Source: Rhodopseudomonas sp. (GTDB taxonomy: Bacteria > Pseudomonadota > Alphaproteobacteria > Rhizobiales > Xanthobacteraceae). From it: a stretch of 57,138 bases of DNA. How positions within the stretch are numbered: position 1 is the stretch's first letter; each line of letters opens with the position of its first letter. Where the stretch lies: NCBI GenBank assembly GCA_016124795.1, contig WGNB01000047.1:1-57138 (forward strand), written 5' to 3'. The position numbers and the translations under genes are program-made. Under the pieces are notes generated by a model. It had not been told where the DNA came from, searched no databases, and saw only the letters and a list, made by a program, of their open reading frames with translations. Positions 2,651 to 12,765 of the stretch are shown in pieces.

Positions 2651-3556
2651 ATGTGGGCGATAGCGACGGCACTCATTAACGGTAAAAAGACACCGTGTCT
2701 GAAGGTTGCCGGCCGGCTTTATCCATTCGCGACGCTAAGCCCGACCCTGCCCGGCTCGACGATCGATCTGTTCGCCGATTGGCCGGCGGCCAGCGCAAAA
2801 CTCGACGCCCTCGCCGCCGATATCGCTGCCGGCAAACTGGCGACGGGCGCCGATCAATCCATCGACGCGGCCACCGCCGATCTGCTGGCGCCGCTGCTCT
2901 ATCCCGGCAAGGTGCTGTGCGCCGGCGCGAACTATTACGACCACATGGCCGAGATGGGCTTTCCCGACGTCAAGAAGGAAACCCAGCGCCTGTTCTTCTT
3001 CTTCAAGCCGCCGCGCAATGCCGTGGTCGGTCCCGGCGACACCGTGACGATGCCGCGCGGCACCCAGAAATACGATTGGGAAATCGAACTCGCCGCCGTC
3101 ATCGGCAAGACCGCGCGCTACGTCACGCCGGAGAACGCGCTCGACCACGTCGCCGGCTACACCATTGGCATCGACCTGTCGGCCCGCGACTTCAATCAGG
3201 CGCCCGATCAGTTTTACAAGCTCGACTGGGTCGCTGGCAAAGCGACCGACACCAGTTGTCCGCTCGGTCCGTTTTTCGTGCCGGCCTCGGCCCTGCCCGA
3301 TCCGCAGAACGTCGCGCTCAAGCTCGCCGTCAACGGTGAGGTCAAGCAGGACAGCAACACCGGCAAGATGATCTATTCGATCGCCGAGCAGATCGCGCGC
3401 GCTTCCGAAATCATGACCCTCGATCCGGGCGACGTCATCCTGACCGGCACGCCGGCCGGCGTCGGCGTCCCGAAGGGCACCTTTCTCAAACCGGGCGACC
3501 GCATCGATGCCGACATTGCCGGCATCGGCCGCCTGACCGTCAAGATCCGAGCCTGA
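2651..3556 (+). CDS. FAH family hydrolase of a TRAP-linked operon
   Basis: A 301-residue FAH superfamily enzyme. The metal ligands are Glu144 and Glu146 in YDWEIEL and Asp175 in IGIDLSARD. A conserved Lys lies at 197 (AGKATDTSCPLGPF), and GTPAGVGV begins at 266. An N-terminal region of about 85 residues precedes ANYYDHMAEMG. It is likely to cleave or hydrate a 2-oxo-3-deoxy or acylpyruvate-type acid. The gene is the first of an operon with dctPQM-type TRAP genes (33-bp gap to the binding protein). This suggests that its substrate derives from the imported acid. The exact substrate cannot be deduced. Confidence 0.9.
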   Translation: MWAIATALINGKKTPCLKVAGRLYPFATLSPTLPGSTIDLFADWPAASAKLDALAADIAAGKLATGADQSIDAATADLLAPLLYPGKVLCAGANYYDHMAEMGFPDVKKETQRLFFFFKPPRNAVVGPGDTVTMPRGTQKYDWEIELAAVIGKTARYVTPENALDHVAGYTIGIDLSARDFNQAPDQFYKLDWVAGKATDTSCPLGPFFVPASALPDPQNVALKLAVNGEVKQDSNTGKMIYSIAEQIARASEIMTLDPGDVILTGTPAGVGVPKGTFLKPGDRIDADIAGIGRLTVKIRA

Positions 3557-3589
3557 CCGTCGTCCAGGCCGAACCGAAGGAGACACGAG

Positions 3590-4582
3590 ATGCATAAGCT
3601 TTCGATGTTCGCGCGCGGCATTGCCGGATCGGCGCTGGCGATCCTGCTGGCGTCGGGCACGGCGCAAGCCGCCGACCTGACCTTGCGATTCTCGACCGCG
3701 GCGCCGCCGGCCGACTTCCTGGCCAAGTCGCTGGAAACCTTCAAGGCCGATGTCGAAGCCGCCAAGGTCGGCATCAAGGTCGAAACCTATCCCGGCTCCA
3801 AGCTGTTCCGTCAGGGCACCGAGGTTCCCGCCATCCAGCGCGGCAACCTCGAAATGAGCACCATGACCACCTTCGAAATCTCGCAACAGGTGCCGCGCTT
3901 CGGCTTTCTCAACCGCGCCTATCTGTTCAAGGACTACGACCACATGATGAAGGTGCTGGCCGGCCCGGTCGGCAAGGCGCTCGACGCCGCGGTCGCCAAG
4001 GACATGGACATCGAAATCCTGTCGGTCGCTTATCTCGGCACCCGCCAGGTCAATCTGCGCAAGGCACGCGCGGTCAAATCGCCCGACGACCTCAAGGGCG
4101 TGAAGATGCGGATGCCGGCCTCGCCGGAATGGCTGCTGCTCGGCCGCACCCTCAACGTCGAACCGACGCCGATGGCGATGCCGGAAGTCTACGTCGCGCT
4201 GCAGACCGGCGCGATCGACGGCCAGGAAAATCCGCTCACCATCATGAACGCCGCCAAGTTCTTCGAAGTCACCGAACAGGTGGTGCTGACCTCGCATCTG
4301 GTGCAGCCGGTATTCTTCGCCATCGGCAAGTCGTTCTGGGACAAGATGAGCGACGCCCAGAAAAAGGTGGTGAAGGACGCCGCCGTCAAAGCCGCCGATC
4401 AGAACAACAAGGGCCGCTACGGCGATGAAAAGCGGGTCGCCGACCTGCTCAAGACCAAGGGTCTGAAGGTCGATGCCGTCGATCTGGCGCCATTCCGGGC
4501 CAATGCCGACAAGATCTACGCCGCCTCCGACCTCGCCAAGAAGTGGGATGCGAAGTTGATGGCCGAGGCGCTCAAGCCGTGA
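3590..4582 (+). CDS. dctP: TRAP transporter solute-binding protein (DctP family)
   Basis: A 330-residue periplasmic binding protein of a tripartite (TRAP) importer. A Sec signal peptide ends at about AQA27, just before ADLTLRF. The mature part has the DctP fold signature: DLKGVKMRMPAS, where the arginine normally binds the substrate carboxylate, and DGQENPLTIM in the C-terminal half. It delivers an organic acid to the DctQM permease encoded next. The dctQ start overlaps its stop, so all three parts are co-translated. The FAH enzyme upstream and the GntR regulator suggest an oxo- or sugar-acid ligand. This is an inference. Confidence 0.92.
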   Translation: MHKLSMFARGIAGSALAILLASGTAQAADLTLRFSTAAPPADFLAKSLETFKADVEAAKVGIKVETYPGSKLFRQGTEVPAIQRGNLEMSTMTTFEISQQVPRFGFLNRAYLFKDYDHMMKVLAGPVGKALDAAVAKDMDIEILSVAYLGTRQVNLRKARAVKSPDDLKGVKMRMPASPEWLLLGRTLNVEPTPMAMPEVYVALQTGAIDGQENPLTIMNAAKFFEVTEQVVLTSHLVQPVFFAIGKSFWDKMSDAQKKVVKDAAVKAADQNNKGRYGDEKRVADLLKTKGLKVDAVDLAPFRANADKIYAASDLAKKWDAKLMAEALKP

Positions 4583-5133
4583 GCCCGGCACCCGCAGGAC
4601 GTCTGGCCTGCGCGCTGCGGACGGCGGTCGGAACGATCAGGAAGGTCGCGACAGTAGTCGCGACCCTCACTTTCACCGGTGTCGTGCTGGCATTCGCTTA
4701 TGGCGTGATCGCCCGTTACGTGCTGCGTAACCCGTCCAGCGTCGCCGACGAATCCGCCGTCATTCTCTACCTGTGGACCATCATGATCGGCGGCTCGCTG
4801 GCCGTCGGGCTCGGCGACCAGATCAGTTTCGAATTGCTGGTCGACCGGTTGCGCGGACGCGGCGGTCGCTGGATCGAAGCGCTCGGCATGCTCATTGCCG
4901 GGGCAATCCTGCTTTATGCGCTGCCGACCACGCTTGACTACGTGCGCTTCCTGTGGCGAGAGAAGACGCCGGCGCTCGAACTGTCGCTCGACAAACTCTA
5001 CGCCTGCTTCGTGCTGTTTCAGGGCGCGACCTCGATCGCCCTGCTGGCGCGCGCGATCGATCTCGCTTTCGGCTTGAGCAATGCCCCCGAAAGCGCGGAT
5101 GCCGCCGACGACACCGGAAAGCAGATCTCATGA
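4579..5133 (+). CDS. dctQ: TRAP transporter small permease subunit (DctQ family)
   Basis: A 184-residue membrane protein with four predicted transmembrane segments, beginning after a short cytoplasmic stretch (about residues 16-41, 52-70, 88-108, 132-155). It carries the DctQ hallmark RYVLRNPSSVADESAVILYL in its first half. It bridges the binding protein and the large DctM channel. The GTG start at 4579 was chosen because it overlaps the dctP stop as GTGA and gives a family-typical N-terminus. An ATG at 4543 would add 12 residues from inside dctP. The stop overlaps the dctM start as ATGA. Confidence 0.9.
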   Translation: MSPAPAGRLACALRTAVGTIRKVATVVATLTFTGVVLAFAYGVIARYVLRNPSSVADESAVILYLWTIMIGGSLAVGLGDQISFELLVDRLRGRGGRWIEALGMLIAGAILLYALPTTLDYVRFLWREKTPALELSLDKLYACFVLFQGATSIALLARAIDLAFGLSNAPESADAADDTGKQIS

Positions 5134-6422
5134 GCACGCCTTTCATTCTGCTGCTCGCCGCTTTCGTCGGATTGTCGCTGGCCCGCGTGCCGCTCGCGCT
5201 GTCGATGATGGTTGCCGGCTTTGTCTACCTGATCACGTCGCATCAGGATCTCGGCATCGCCACCGACCAGATCATGAACTCGCTCTATAACAATTACGTT
5301 CTGCTCGCGGTGCCGATGTTCATTCTCGCCGCCAATGTCATGAACGCCGGCACCATCAGCAAACGCCTGTGGGGCGCGGCCGATGCCGCCGTCGGCCATC
5401 TCCACGGCGGGCTGGGCCACGTCACCGTTCTCGTCTCCGTTGCGTTCTCCTCGATGAGCGGCAGCGCGCTGGCGGATGCCGCCGGACCGGGCCTGGTCGC
5501 CCTGAAGATGATGCGCGAAGTCGGCGGCTTCCGGCCCGGCTTTGCCGCCGCGTTGACGGCCGCGGCCGCGACCATCGCACCGATCATTCCACCATCGATT
5601 CCTTTGGTGCTTTATGCGCTGAACTCGGACGCCTCGGTCGGCGCCCTGTTCCTCGGCGGCGTCGTGCCCGGACTGATCATGGCGCTCAGCCTGATGGCCA
5701 CGGTGTCGATCGTTGCCCGCCGCACCGGCCTCGGCCGGCGGCCCTGGGTCGGCTGGGCCGCTTTCGGTAAGGCGATGGCCGGCGCCGCGATCCCGATGAC
5801 CATTCCGGTGGTTCTGCTCGGCGGCATCTGGAGCGGCGCGTTTACGCCGACCGAAGCCGCCGCCATCGCCGGAATATACGCCCTGCTGATATCGGTTTTC
5901 GTCTACCGCGCCTATGACTGGCCAACCCTGTGGGCGGTGCTCGTTGAATCGATGCGCGCCTCGTCGGTCGTGATGCTGCTGATCGCCGGCGCCTTCCTGA
6001 TCAACTACGCGGTCACCGCCGAACAGCTCGACAAGGCTCTGGCCGGCTGGATCATCGGCGCGCGGCTGACATCGACCGAATTCCTGCTGGCGATCAATAT
6101 CCTGTTCCTGATACTGGGCTGTCTGATCGACACCGGCACCTTGATCCTGATCCTGGTGCCGTTGCTGCTGCCGACCATCAAGCTGCTCGGCATCGATCTG
6201 GTGCATTTCGGCGTGCTGATCACCATCAACATCATGATCGGGCTGATTACACCGCCGTTCGGCCTGCTGCTGTTCACGCTGGCCAAGCTGGGCGACGTCC
6301 GGATCAACGAGGTCGTGCGGGAGATCTGGCCGTTCATCGCCGCCCTGCTGGTGTCGTTGGCGATCACCACTTTCATACCGCAAACCGTGCTTTGGCTGCC
6401 GGCGCTCGCCGGGTTTCGGTGA
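5130..6422 (+). CDS. dctM: TRAP transporter large permease subunit (DctM family)
   Basis: A 430-residue, highly hydrophobic membrane protein with about 12 transmembrane segments. It is the sodium-coupled channel of the TRAP importer. Family features include the N-terminal VPLALSMM stretch, SSMSGSALADAAGPG (about residues 109-123), the helical hairpin motif APIIPPSIPLVLYAL and the C-terminal NIMIGLITPPFGLLL. The ATG at 5130 overlaps the dctQ stop (ATGA). Longer readings upstream lie inside dctQ and are not coding. It completes the transporter, so the operon is a self-contained uptake module. Confidence 0.94.
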   Translation: MSTPFILLLAAFVGLSLARVPLALSMMVAGFVYLITSHQDLGIATDQIMNSLYNNYVLLAVPMFILAANVMNAGTISKRLWGAADAAVGHLHGGLGHVTVLVSVAFSSMSGSALADAAGPGLVALKMMREVGGFRPGFAAALTAAAATIAPIIPPSIPLVLYALNSDASVGALFLGGVVPGLIMALSLMATVSIVARRTGLGRRPWVGWAAFGKAMAGAAIPMTIPVVLLGGIWSGAFTPTEAAAIAGIYALLISVFVYRAYDWPTLWAVLVESMRASSVVMLLIAGAFLINYAVTAEQLDKALAGWIIGARLTSTEFLLAINILFLILGCLIDTGTLILILVPLLLPTIKLLGIDLVHFGVLITINIMIGLITPPFGLLLFTLAKLGDVRINEVVREIWPFIAALLVSLAITTFIPQTVLWLPALAGFR

Positions 6423-8793: not shown

Positions 8794-9150
8794 CTGAAAC
8801 TCCCTTGGATCTGGCCAAAACTCTTTACGCAATACGCATCGCAATCGGAGCCGGACGAGACCGGCCGAATTCTTTTGGCGTCAAACCTGGAAATGTTGAG
8901 CATCGCGGGCGAGCGTTCCGGACCCAAGGCCGACTTGATGCCAAAGGGCCGTCGCCAGAGCCGATACCCAAACTCGATCGCGCCGTTATTAACAAAGCCC
9001 GAAAGTGGTTAAAGGCCGGTTAACCAAAAAAACCCCGCTATTGGCGGGGCTTTTCTGCATCGTCGCGAAGCGGCGGACTTGTGAGTTCGGCCTTGCTGCG
9101 GCTGTTTATAAGCGGCGGCCGGAAAGCGATTCGCCCCGATCAGCCTCGGC
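8794..9150. other. Intergenic stretch without a credible gene
   Basis: About 357 bp between two minus-strand genes. It holds the promoter region of the beta-barrel gene on the left and the terminator at 9025-9054 on the right. A 72-codon open frame at 8805-9023 (plus) has no recognisable family, poor composition and no ribosome site, so it is not called. Confidence 0.6.
9025..9054 (-). terminator. Terminator of the thiamine/TRAP-binding-protein operon
   Basis: A 6-bp GC stem (9033-9038 with 9044-9049, 5-nt loop) is flanked by seven A residues on the left (9026-9032), read as T7 on the minus strand, and by CTTTT on the right. It can work in both directions, but the minus-strand operon ending at 9151 is the obvious user. 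Confidence 0.75.
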
Positions 9151-10224
9151 TCAGCCGAGCCGCGCCCGCAGCACCGCCTCGATCGAGACATGCGACCACT
9201 GCGCCGTCCGGTCGCGGAACGCCTTGTAGGATTTATAAACACCAGCGGTCGCCGTGTCGCGCGCGGCCAGTTCATTCAAGACATCATCGGCCTGACGGCG
9301 CGCCGCCGCGATCAGATCGGTGGGAAAGGCAACGAGCTTGACGCCGTGCTGGCCGGTCAGCGCCGCCAGCGCCTGACCGTTCAACCGCTCCATTTCCGCC
9401 AGCGCGTAATTTGCCTCGCTGGCGCAGGCGTGCTCGATGATCGCCTTGAGATCGTCCGGCAGGGCCTGCCAGGCCTTGAGCGAGACGATGCACTCGCCGG
9501 TGCCGTTCGGCTTGTTGAAGCCGGGATAATAATAATTGGCTGCGGCCCGATAGAGCCCCAGCGCGATGTCGGTGCCGGGGCCCACGAACTCGGCGCCATC
9601 GATTACACCGGATTGCAGGCTCGACAGGATTTCGGCCGGCGGCGTGGTTTGTGGCGTCGCACCCAGCCGGCGATAGACCTCGCCGCCCAGCCCGAGGGAG
9701 CGAAGTTTCAGCCCCTTGAGGTCGGCGAGGCTCTTGAGATCGCGCCGGAACCATCCGCCCATGCAGACGCCGGTATTGCCGCCCATGAACGGCTTGACGC
9801 CGAAGGGCGCATAAAGCGCATCCCACAAGGCCTGGCCGCCGCCGGCATCGATCCAGGCGACGTGCTCGGCCGGCGTCAGCCCGAACGGCACCGTCGTGAA
9901 GAACGCCGCTGAGGGCATCTTGCCCTGCCAGTAAAACGCCGCGGTATGACCAATCTCGGCAACACCATTGCCGACCGCGTCGAGCACGCCGAAAGCCGGC
10001 ACCACTTCACCGGCCGCCGACACGGCAATATCGAGACGCCCTGCCGACAGCGTGCGGATACGATCGGCGATCCGTTCGGCCGACATGCCCGGCCCCGGCA
10101 GCCGCTTCGGCCATGACGTCACCATGCGCCACTTCAAAGTCTGCGCTTTCGCAATTGCTGGCGCCGCGACCAGACCGGCGGCGGCGAGGCCGGCGCCGAG
10201 CGCAAAATTGCGTCGTGTGGTCAT
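9151..10224 (-). CDS. Orphan TRAP solute-binding protein (DctP family) in the thi operon
   Basis: A 357-residue periplasmic binding protein. The N-terminus TTRRNFALGAG followed by a hydrophobic stretch and AKAQ is a twin-arginine signal, so it may be exported folded. The mature chain LKWRMVTSWPKRLPG resembles the TakP branch of DctP proteins. LKGLKLRSLGLGG carries the probable carboxylate-binding arginine, and GVIDGAEFVGPG lies in lobe 2. The start at 10224 has GGAGTGG upstream and overlaps the thiD stop as ATGA. An ATG at 10236 has no ribosome site. No DctQ/M permease is adjacent. Being the last gene of a TPP-riboswitch operon suggests thiamine or a precursor as ligand, but that is inference. 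Confidence 0.9.
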   Translation of the reverse strand: MTTRRNFALGAGLAAAGLVAAPAIAKAQTLKWRMVTSWPKRLPGPGMSAERIADRIRTLSAGRLDIAVSAAGEVVPAFGVLDAVGNGVAEIGHTAAFYWQGKMPSAAFFTTVPFGLTPAEHVAWIDAGGGQALWDALYAPFGVKPFMGGNTGVCMGGWFRRDLKSLADLKGLKLRSLGLGGEVYRRLGATPQTTPPAEILSSLQSGVIDGAEFVGPGTDIALGLYRAAANYYYPGFNKPNGTGECIVSLKAWQALPDDLKAIIEHACASEANYALAEMERLNGQALAALTGQHGVKLVAFPTDLIAAARRQADDVLNELAARDTATAGVYKSYKAFRDRTAQWSHVSIEAVLRARLG

Positions 10225-11027
10225 AATCCACTCCATGATTGATAGAAATGATGCAACGGCCCATGGCCGTGTCCGACCGCGAGCCGGTCGGCCGCCGCGA
10301 TTGCCGCGGTGACGTAAACCTTGGCGGCGCGCACCGCGTCGTTCAGTCCGAGTCCCTTAGCCAATCCGGCGGCAATCGCGGAGGACAGCGTACAACCCGT
10401 GCCATGAGTGTTGTCGGTCGCGATCCGCGGCGCCGGAAACCGCACCACGCCCTCTTCGCCGACCAGAAGATCGACACTCTCGGCGCCGGTGCCGTGGCCG
10501 CCTTTCATCAGGACGTATCGCGGACCGAACGCCAATATCCTGAGGGCCTGCGCGACCATTTCGTCTTCACTGGACGCGACCGCAGCGTCGGTCAACGCCG
10601 CCGCTTCATGCAGGTTCGGCGTCACCACGAGCGCCAACGGCAACAGCTCACGGCACAGTGCCGCGACGGCTTCGGCCGCCAGCAGCCGGTCGCCCGAGGT
10701 CGCCACCATCACGGGATCGAGCACGATGTTGCGGGCCGCGTGCCGTTTCAGCCCAGCGGCCACCGCCTCGATTGCCGCGACGTTCGATAGCATACCGATC
10801 TTGACGGCATCGACGTCGAGATCGGAGAACACCGCGTCGATCTGCGCCGCAATGAAATCGGCCGGCACATCATGGATCGCGCTGACGCCCTGGGTATTTT
10901 GCGCGGTCAAGGCCGCGATTGCCGACGCGCCATAGACGCCAAGCGCGGCGAAGGTCTTGAGATCGGCCTGAATGCCGGCGCCACCGCTCGAATCCGAGCC
11001 CGCGATGGTGACGGCAATCGCGGTCAT
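10221..11027 (-). CDS. thiD: Hydroxymethylpyrimidine/phosphomethylpyrimidine kinase
   Basis: A 268-residue ribokinase-fold enzyme that phosphorylates HMP and HMP-P to HMP-PP for thiamine synthesis and salvage. Diagnostic sequence: AGSDSSGGAGIQADLK at 9-24 (substrate site) and DNTHGTGC at 205-212, which holds the anion hole and catalytic Cys212. The length equals that of typical stand-alone ThiD. It overlaps the neighbouring genes by 4 bp on both sides (ATGA with thiE before it and with the TRAP binding protein after it), so all are translationally coupled under the TPP riboswitch. Confidence 0.95.
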   Translation of the reverse strand: MTAIAVTIAGSDSSGGAGIQADLKTFAALGVYGASAIAALTAQNTQGVSAIHDVPADFIAAQIDAVFSDLDVDAVKIGMLSNVAAIEAVAAGLKRHAARNIVLDPVMVATSGDRLLAAEAVAALCRELLPLALVVTPNLHEAAALTDAAVASSEDEMVAQALRILAFGPRYVLMKGGHGTGAESVDLLVGEEGVVRFPAPRIATDNTHGTGCTLSSAIAAGLAKGLGLNDAVRAAKVYVTAAIAAADRLAVGHGHGPLHHFYQSWSGL

Positions 11028-11683
11028 CCCCGCCTCCGTTGCGCCAGTGCGACATCGACGACATTGCGCAGGCCGCGCGCCGCCTTGCGCGGGTCGGCAT
11101 TCAACGACAAAGCCGAAATCACCGCCACGCCATCAGCGCCAGCCCCGATCACGTCGGCGGCGTTGTCTTGATCGATGCCGGCAATGGCGCAGATCGGAAA
11201 ATCGGGCCGACGCGCCCGCACCGCCGCCGCAATCTCGCGAAGGCCGGCAATACCGATCGGCGCCGATGTATTATCCTTCGAGGTGGTGCCATAGACGCCA
11301 CCGATGGCGACATAATCAAGTTGATCGAGCGGCGCTTCCTGCGCCTGTTGCAGAGTCTTGACCGACAGACCGATGATCGCGGTCTTGCCGAGCAGCAGTC
11401 GGGCGTCGGCCGGGGACATGTCGTCCTGTCCGATATGAACGCCATCGGCCTCCGCCGCCAACGCGACATCGACCCTGTCGTTGATCAGCAGCGGAATATC
11501 GAGCGGCGCGAGCACAGCGATCAAGGCCCGCGCTTCCTCCATCATGCGCCGGGTCGAACCGTGCTTGTCGCGCAATTGCACCAACGTCGTACTCGGCGCG
11601 ATTGCCGCGGCGAGATCGGCCAGATCGCGGCCACCCGAAACGGCGGGGTCAAGCAGCGCATAAAGACGAAGGTCGAGGTTCAT
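11024..11683 (-). CDS. thiE: Thiamine-phosphate synthase
   Basis: A 219-residue TIM-barrel enzyme that joins HMP-PP and thiazole phosphate to make thiamine monophosphate. Family motifs: VQLRDK at 35-40, INDRVDVA at 67-74 and GVHIGQDD at 81-88 (pyrophosphate/Mg2+ site), then GGVYGTTSKDN around 128-138. Its ATG follows the thiM stop directly with no gap, and its stop overlaps thiD. With thiM and thiD it forms a salvage route from hydroxyethylthiazole and HMP. The de novo genes thiC, thiG, thiS and thiO are not in the window. Confidence 0.95.
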   Translation of the reverse strand: MNLDLRLYALLDPAVSGGRDLADLAAAIAPSTTLVQLRDKHGSTRRMMEEARALIAVLAPLDIPLLINDRVDVALAAEADGVHIGQDDMSPADARLLLGKTAIIGLSVKTLQQAQEAPLDQLDYVAIGGVYGTTSKDNTSAPIGIAGLREIAAAVRARRPDFPICAIAGIDQDNAADVIGAGADGVAVISALSLNADPRKAARGLRNVVDVALAQRRRG

Positions 11684-12505
11684 TCAGGTCACCACCGTTG
11701 GTTCGAGCCGGCCGACTTTGGCATGTGCCGTCAGCGACGCTTCGTCGAGTCGATAGAGCGCATCAAGGATCGCGACGGCAAAGCTGCCCGGCCCTTGCGC
11801 CATCGTCGCGGCCCGTTCGCCGGCCACGCCGACCATCAGCAAGGCCGCGGCAGTCGCCAGGAAGCCGTCGGTTTCGACCGCCAGACAGGCCGCCACCAAG
11901 GCGGAAGCGGCGCAGCCCATCGCCGTCACCCGGGCCATCAGCGGGTCGCCGTTGCCGAGAGTGACCGCACGGCTACCGTCGGCGATCAGATCGGTCGCGC
12001 CCGACAAACCAATTGCGACGTTATGGTCGCGCGCGTAGGCGGCCACCGTTGCAGGTTCCGCCGGGCCGTCGGCCAAGGCAGTGAACTCGGCGGCATTGAG
12101 GCGGACCGACTTCGGCGCCATGAAAATCAAATCGCGGGCATAGGCCGCCCGCTGTTGCGCCCGGTCGACGAAGACCGGATCGAGCACCCACGGCAGCCCG
12201 TTCTGGGCGGCGGCATCGACGGCGATGGACGTCGCCGCGCGGCGCTCACGATCGAAAGTACCGAGGTTGATCAACAGCGCATCGCTGCGTCCGACGAAGG
12301 CACCGATTTCCTCGGCCGAGAGCGTCATGGACGGCACCGCACCAAAAGCCAGCAGCGCATTGGCGGTGAAATTCTGCGCCACGGCATTGGTCACGCAATG
12401 GACGCGCGGACTCTTGACGCGCAGCCGCGCCAACAGCGCCGCCGACGCGGCGACGAGTTCGTCGGCCGACAAATCTGGACGCGATTCCGCCCGGGAATTC
12501 TGCAT
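11684..12505 (-). CDS. thiM: Hydroxyethylthiazole kinase
   Basis: A 273-residue salvage kinase that phosphorylates 4-methyl-5-(2-hydroxyethyl)thiazole. It shows VHCVTNAVAQNFTANALLA near the N-terminus (substrate pocket), the family GAVPSM segment and TAMGCAASA with the catalytic cysteine. The ATG at 12505 is preceded by GGAGGG 7 nt upstream. That ribosome site is the 3' end of the TPP riboswitch. A longer frame from 12595 would run through the riboswitch and is rejected. First gene of the thiM-thiE-thiD-TRAP binding-protein operon. Expression should fall when thiamine diphosphate is plentiful. Confidence 0.94.
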   Translation of the reverse strand: MQNSRAESRPDLSADELVAASAALLARLRVKSPRVHCVTNAVAQNFTANALLAFGAVPSMTLSAEEIGAFVGRSDALLINLGTFDRERRAATSIAVDAAAQNGLPWVLDPVFVDRAQQRAAYARDLIFMAPKSVRLNAAEFTALADGPAEPATVAAYARDHNVAIGLSGATDLIADGSRAVTLGNGDPLMARVTAMGCAASALVAACLAVETDGFLATAAALLMVGVAGERAATMAQGPGSFAVAILDALYRLDEASLTAHAKVGRLEPTVVT

Positions 12506-12510
12506 CTCAA

Positions 12511-12604
12511 GTCCCTCCGCCGGCATGACCCGGATCAGGTTCGTTGGGTTGGCAGACAGACTGCCTCTCAGCCCGACAACGGCCGGACACCCCACGAGAT
12601 TGCT
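12511..12604 (-). promoter_or_regulatory. TPP riboswitch (THI element)
   Basis: Read on the minus strand, this leader has the conserved THI-box order: GTGGGGTG (complement of 12590-12597), GGGCTGAGA, a variable arm, AACCTGATCCGGGT, ATGCCGGCGGAGGGAC. A TCTC/GAGA-type P1 closing helix can form with the bases just before the thiM start. It should bind thiamine diphosphate and repress thiM-thiE-thiD and the TRAP binding-protein gene. The GGAGGG that ends the aptamer is also the Shine-Dalgarno of thiM. This suggests control of translation initiation, as in E. coli thiM, with no separate terminator hairpin seen. Confidence 0.95.
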
Positions 12605-12765
12605 GTGTCCCTACCTAATCCGGGCCCCGAGCCAAGGCAAGGGCGCGCCGCGACATGCCTGTAGATGGCAGTTCCGCAACCGGCAACGGCTGTATCGCCT
12701 TGCCAGCAGGGCGCGTTTTTGCTGGATTGCGGCTTGCGTCCAGCGACCGGCCCGGAGACCCAGCG

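Follow-up and report, generated by a model that had tools for sequence, protein, structure and literature searches.

A TRAP-type binding protein in riboswitch-led thiamine salvage operons of Rhizobiales, a candidate receptor for a thiazole precursor

The DNA analysed here (the window) comprises 57,138 nucleotides of contig WGNB01000047.1 from Rhodopseudomonas sp. (assembly GCA_016124795.1), and carries on its minus strand an operon in which three thiamine genes are followed by a gene for a substrate-binding protein of the tripartite ATP-independent periplasmic (TRAP) transporter type, a class of importers known to handle organic acids. The operon leader contains a thiamine pyrophosphate (TPP) riboswitch aptamer (12493..12604, (-)), scored by a covariance-model search of the window at 67.8 bits (Rfam RF00059, E 3.2e-11) against a gathering score of 54.3. 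It is followed by thiM, encoding hydroxyethylthiazole kinase (11684..12505, (-); PF02110, 186.5 bits), thiE, encoding thiamine phosphate synthase (11024..11683, (-); PF02581, 189 bits; TIGR00693 above cut-off), and thiD, encoding the kinase of hydroxymethylpyrimidine (HMP) and its phosphate HMP-P (10221..11027, (-); PF08543, 320.9 bits; TIGR00097 above cut-off). The last gene (9151..10224, (-)) encodes a DctP-family protein (PF03480, 146.8 bits against a cut-off of 23.4), which is the subject of this report as a candidate thiazole-precursor receptor. All four Pfam scores are far over the family cut-offs, and thiM, thiE and thiD together constitute a thiamine salvage operon headed by a TPP riboswitch, as a preliminary description of this stretch, made from its sequence, had proposed.

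The genes are tightly packed: no gap separates thiM from thiE, thiD shares four bases with thiE, and the receptor start codon (ATG 10224-10222) overlaps the thiD stop codon (TGA 10223-10221) in the ATGA that had been noted earlier, the list of open reading frames instead starting the receptor at an in-frame ATG at 10236. The receptor N-terminus, MTTRRNFALGAGLAAAGLVAAPAIAKAQ, is of the twin-arginine type, and a twin-arginine translocation (Tat) signal peptide probably spans 10141..10224 (-), as read from the sequence; among 109 thi-linked relatives, 105 have an RR-type motif ahead of residue 35. The earlier characterization of the product as a Tat-exported DctP-family protein agrees with both its signal and its PF03480 match, and the absence of an adjoining DctQ or DctM permease gene in the window was likewise described correctly. 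Beyond the receptor gene, a hairpin followed by a T run (9026..9049, (-)) was read from the sequence as a possible terminator; the computed hairpin scan places it on the plus strand only, with 5 hairpins found versus 3.3 expected in shuffles.

The list of open reading frames starts thiM at GTG 12595, but the most likely start is ATG 12505, directly 3' of the aptamer, giving a protein of 273 residues. The 3' strand of aptamer stem P1 ends with the A of this ATG, and the preceding GGAGGGA sits within the aptamer, so that ligand-bound aptamer would directly mask the translation start. Upstream of the aptamer, a stretch (12613-12625, (-)) provides a 14-nt run of complementarity to the aptamer core that dominates the computed fold. 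The riboswitch was folded, as had been suggested as a check; the upstream complementary strand is striking in the window, and the z-score of the fold is only -0.86. The complementary strand was rejected as a general switch, a run of at least 9 being present in only 8 of 57 leaders.

The arrangement is widespread. A search of named genomes yielded 69 related loci, some cut by contig ends, from taxa that include Pseudolabrys, Rhodoplanes, Pseudorhodoplanes, Bradyrhizobium sp. LHD-71 and Chelatococcus. In 62 of these thiD lies directly upstream of the receptor orthologue on the same strand, accompanied by thiM in 60 and thiE in 59, and the arrangement is therefore more than chance. The seven loci without thiD (L041, L057, L058, L060, L062, L070 and L071) include one that begins inside the receptor gene (L071) and one with ~220 bases ahead of the match (L060). 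In an order-wide survey of 397 genomes, 122 contain a receptor match at 1e-90, and thiD lies beside the receptor in all 29 top survey loci fetched in addition to the window's own. Among a further 36 loci, hand-picked from both score tiers, thiD is adjacent in 18, comprising 16/16 from the upper tier (L126-L141) and 2/20 from around or below the tier limit (L105, L121); 10 of the 18 picked loci without thiD have a DctM match adjoining the receptor. Conservation of operon order, the first check proposed for this locus, thus extends over many families. Sixty loci of the named-genome set bear thiM, and a TPP motif search found the aptamer in 45 of them; 11 of the 15 that it missed were given to Rfam, which recognized an aptamer in three. 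Of 16 survey loci given to Rfam, 15 have an aptamer, whereas 11 unlinked receptor loci showed none. The feature is real, and many families of the order have retained it. Among the papers listed by our searches of the open-licence part of PubMed Central (PMC), we saw none that connects a TRAP receptor with the salvage of thiamine or thiazole.

A tree of 97 receptor rows, drawn up without near-identical Pseudolabrys-like rows and without L071, places all 68 thi-linked rows in one clade (support 100/100) together with 11 nested unlinked rows. Its sister clade consists of 11 TakP-like receptors adjoining takQM (DctM) permease genes. The rows of this tree indicate a single gain of thi linkage and three separate losses, the unlinked offshoots being a group of four (L104, L107, L108, L111), a single locus (L102) and six L041-type loci. 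The genomes of the group of four have ThiG and no ThiC match, and their receptors keep the PNG..E motif of the family. The L041-type sub-clade (L041, L057, L058, L060, L062, L070) lies outside the thi operon, with ThiG in 4 of its 6 genomes; the receptor gene of L057 adjoins a gene of M24/creatinase type, and similar reading frames occur in L062 and L070.

The distribution of the gene follows that of thiazole synthesis. Carriers, 82 of the 397 genomes, were those matching the receptor query at 379 bits or more, with G354 (347 bits; linked, L105) added, while G380 (373 bits; inspected and unlinked, L102) was left out; linkage was inspected in 48 of the 82 (the window and 29 + 18 loci). ThiG was scored as absent where its match was weaker than 1e-30 (61 genomes) and as present in G279, whose ThiG is partial (1e-34). 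The receptor is carried by 26 of 45 genomes that have ThiC and lack ThiG, by 9/157 with both, by 5/35 with ThiG only and by 42/160 with neither. Among genomes with ThiC, ThiG loss is associated with carriage at an odds ratio of 22.5 (p 1.6e-13, kinship ignored), and when each genus is counted once per ThiG state, which partly allows for kinship, the proportions are 14/24 without ThiG versus 5/60 with it (p 3e-6). The Rhodopseudomonas genome itself has ThiC, with thiC behind the only other TPP switch of the genome, and lacks ThiG (best match 1.6e-4); the 18 other survey genomes of the same family have both ThiG and ThiC and no receptor match at 1e-90. Four ThiG-negative genomes have thiC in the cluster itself, downstream of the receptor gene in G022, G163 and G395 (2.1-2.6 Mb) and ahead of thiM in G354. 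These thiC-bearing clusters hold all steps to thiamine monophosphate (TMP) except a source of thiazole, and import of a single compound could be enough for them to form TMP. The association between receptor and ThiG loss is statistical, not strict. Taken with operon order and the single clade, it supports the idea, raised in the preliminary description, that a TRAP receptor controlled by a TPP riboswitch is linked with thiamine salvage.

The binding site was compared in an alignment of 110 thi-linked and 30 other receptors, numbered by way of TakP (2hzk/2hzl), the receptor of the TakPQM 2-oxo acid TRAP transporter of R. sphaeroides, to which the window protein is 33% identical. Arg179 (Arg177 of TakP), the carboxylate arginine of TRAP receptors, is present in all 110 thi-linked and all 30 other sequences, and Glu216 is invariant in the 110. 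The protein resembles in this respect SiaP, a DctP-family receptor in which the selectivity arginine restricts ligands to carboxylates (PMC4646407). The cation ligands of TakP are not kept as a set: Gln156, Glu214 and Glu240 correspond to Cys158, Glu216 and Lys242 in the window protein, where Trp215 has also become Phe. Across the thi-linked clade (n=110), position 158 is C61/S23/Q23/N2/T1 and position 242 is K85/E25. The pocket is otherwise remodelled, with Phe for Trp215 in 106/110, Gly for Val245 in 96/110, and Gly for Pro243 and Pro for Ile47 in every thi-linked sequence.

The structures closest to the receptor are 7ug8, 2hzl, 4yzz, 4yic, 5cm6 and 4pet, and in sequence and fold it is closest to the TakP subgroup. 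By their titles 7ug8 (Synechococcus, 2-oxovalerate with calcium) and 2zzv (calcium with lactate) are metal-bound, unlike the window protein with its lysine at one of the TakP metal ligands. The ligand of 4yic and 4yzz, which we take to be picolinate, a mimic of thiazole-2-carboxylate, is given no weight here. A fold predicted from the single sequence was useless (predicted local distance difference test score, pLDDT, 39.5) and was replaced by an alignment-based fold. TakP-type receptors form a helix-swapped dimer; in the present protein a long C-terminal helix (328-360) is predicted. The receptor is a member of the TakP group by descent and fold, yet it departs from TakP at the cation site and in its gene neighbours, lying in a thi operon without adjoining takQM.

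With the window DctM as query, no DctM gene was found next to any of the thi-linked loci read. The preliminary description had pointed to the dctQM genes at 4579-6422 of the window as a possible partner; this is unlikely, the nearest dctQM (4543-6422) having its own DctP at 3590-4582 and its DctM matching nothing within the flanking sequence, up to 6 kb, of the 69 related loci. More promising as a partner is the TakQ/TakM pair that contig C30 of the same genome carries (152,230-154,109; PF04290, PF06808), 55% and 60% identical to a TakQM of the sister group and with no TakP-like gene beside it. Five receptors of this genome were compared with the TakP of that sister system, and the thi-operon protein is the most similar (48% versus 41, 39, 38 and 30). 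A TakM match at 1e-100 is found in 22 of 25 genomes searched, this one included, and in 63 of 80 carriers in the wider survey (G144 and G354 excluded). No TakP-type receptor was seen in 21 takM loci (20 and the genome's own) within the bases read, which extended 3.5 to 6.2 kb upstream, L194 being without upstream sequence; a TakQ match lies beside takM in 14 of the 21. In G022 and G102 TakP adjoins takQM, and takQM there may therefore serve two receptors. The presence of DctM as such was uninformative as a test for a TRAP partner, being found in 80/80 carriers (at least 5 matches each; the window's genome and G354 excluded, as also in the count of ThiC absence below). We consider the proposed pairing of receptor and TakQM good for the Pseudolabrys-like lineage and tentative elsewhere.

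Carboxythiazole (cHET) is 5-(2-hydroxyethyl)-4-methyl-1,3-thiazole-2-carboxylic acid, an acidic precursor of the thiazole half of thiamine. We propose, with confidence evenly balanced for and against, that the operon serves salvage of a thiazole precursor by way of its own uptake receptor, probably for cHET, delivered through TakQM. When TPP is scarce, the riboswitch would permit synthesis of ThiM, ThiE, ThiD and the binding protein, which would be exported by the Tat path and capture an acidic thiazole precursor, most likely cHET. Arg179 would hold the carboxylate of the ligand and Lys242 probably replaces the cation of TakP in the window protein; the loaded receptor may then dock on the TakQM encoded on C30. 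ThiM would phosphorylate the thiazole, ThiC and ThiD would supply the pyrimidine diphosphate HMP-PP, ThiE would join the two, and rising TPP would close the riboswitch. A 2018 paper states that use of cHET by Ostreococcus requires ThiM, that cHET phosphate (cHET-P) is a substrate of ThiE, that sub-picomolar cHET is used by a thiG mutant of E. coli, and that thiazole importers are of 'unknown sequence identity' (PMC5899164). The more specific claim, that a TPP-riboswitch-run TRAP receptor encoded apart from its permease forms with a receptor-less TakQM a high-affinity cHET importer, the first gene found for thiazole uptake, in which a lysine replaces the TakP metal in most members, is put forward tentatively, as somewhat less than an even chance.

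Several observations weigh against this proposal. Thirty-four of the 82 carriers were counted by score, linkage having been inspected in the other 48. ThiG is kept in 14 of 82 survey carriers and in 9 of 18 thi-linked named genomes (including three Rhodoplanes and three Chelatococcus), the other nine, mostly Pseudolabrys-like, being without it; such carriers would be compatible with use of outside thiazole to spare synthesis. Conversely, 19 of the 45 genomes with ThiC and without ThiG manage without the linked gene. No TPP aptamer reaches the Rfam gathering score in 8 of the 11 thi-linked loci that the motif search had missed, and operons without one at that score include L049 and L055, from two Rhodoplanes isolates. 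Three offshoots of the receptor clade are not thi-linked, and the loss of linkage on three occasions would fit a gene that is a passenger with an unrelated ligand; we regard this as very improbable, given that many families of the order retain the linkage and that distribution follows ThiG. ThiC is absent from 47 of 80 carriers, which therefore also need HMP or whole thiamine and would be served by a receptor for either. The ligand may accordingly be another B1-related compound salvaged by the operon (thiamine, TMP, HMP or an HMP derivative), thiD and thiE also serving HMP salvage and the gene being carried by 42/160 genomes with neither ThiC nor ThiG and by 5/35 with ThiG only. We consider this unlikely: the gene is found in 26/45 thiazole-only auxotrophs versus 5/35 HMP-only auxotrophs (p 8e-5, kinship ignored), and thiamine and HMP have no carboxylate, yet the carboxylate arginine is invariant in 110/110. 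Of the ligands listed in the preliminary description (thiamine, HMP, thiazole or an anionic precursor), an acidic thiazole precursor appears to fit best.

The binding site and the permease raise two further alternatives. The Gln/Glu cation pair of TakP is retained in 20 of 110 thi-linked proteins, and its ligand-binding Tyr100 has become Phe in 46/110, both of which also count against the proposal. The closest folds are those of 2-oxo acid and lactate receptors, and with Arg179 and Glu216 kept, and the Gln/Glu pair retained in those 20, the protein might still bind 2-oxo or 2-hydroxy acids as TakP does, TPP control then coupling their import to the cofactor that the enzymes consuming them require. 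Against this, two of the cation ligands are replaced in the window protein, by Cys158 and Lys242, and its pocket is remodelled; a TPP switch would, moreover, raise uptake at low TPP, when 2-oxo acids are hardest to use, and the association with ThiG loss would be left unexplained, so that we think this explanation has little chance of being right. A more serious doubt concerns the partner. With at least 5 DctM matches in every carrier counted, the receptor could bind the proposed ligand and use one or more other TRAP permeases of the genome in place of the C30 takQM. A TakM match at 1e-100 is absent from 17 of 80 carriers, being weaker in 12 (among them, with this query, the window's own genome) and lacking at 1e-60 in 5, and is absent from three Chelatococcus genomes. 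Seven of the 21 takM loci contain, 2-4.5 kb downstream of takM, a remote member of the DctP family (22-24% identity) that could serve as the takM receptor there. That takM stands without a TakP-like receptor in 21/21 loci (within the bases read, as above), and that none of the other four receptors compared comes as near to the TakP of this TakQM type as the thi-operon protein does, favour the C30 pair, and a different permease seems to us possible, though doubtful. On C30 the downstream gene (4116-5057 of L158, ~4 kb from takQM) encodes a DctP-family protein with no obvious signal peptide, and a DctP-like match occupies a similar position in 6 other takM loci.

Firmicutes have a putative thiazole importer, ThiW. 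Microbes trade the two moieties of vitamin B1, an exchange that matters in water, soil and the gut. Known or putative importers of B1 or half-B1 compounds also include ThiBPQ, ThiXYZ, ThiV, CytX, YkoCDEF, ThiT and Omr1 (PMC10881298, PMC12236431) along with ThiW (PMC6478431), and in the available portions of those lists they often lie near a TPP switch, as here (PMC10881298, PMC12236431), while none is given there as a TRAP system, unlike the present receptor. If the proposal holds, a vitamin precursor would be added to the range of TRAP transporters, and predictions of B1 auxotrophy could include thiazole uptake. A concrete gene, present by the carrier definition above in 82 of 397 genomes of the order, and a named candidate permease make the question of thiazole uptake directly testable.

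Two minor observations concern other TRAP genes. The window contains at 2651-6422 a complete TRAP set, dctP-dctQ-dctM, which follows a gene of the FAA-hydrolase family. The whole genome has 30 DctP-family matches in 5.1 Mb, one of which (C6:138844-139140) is cut by a contig end.

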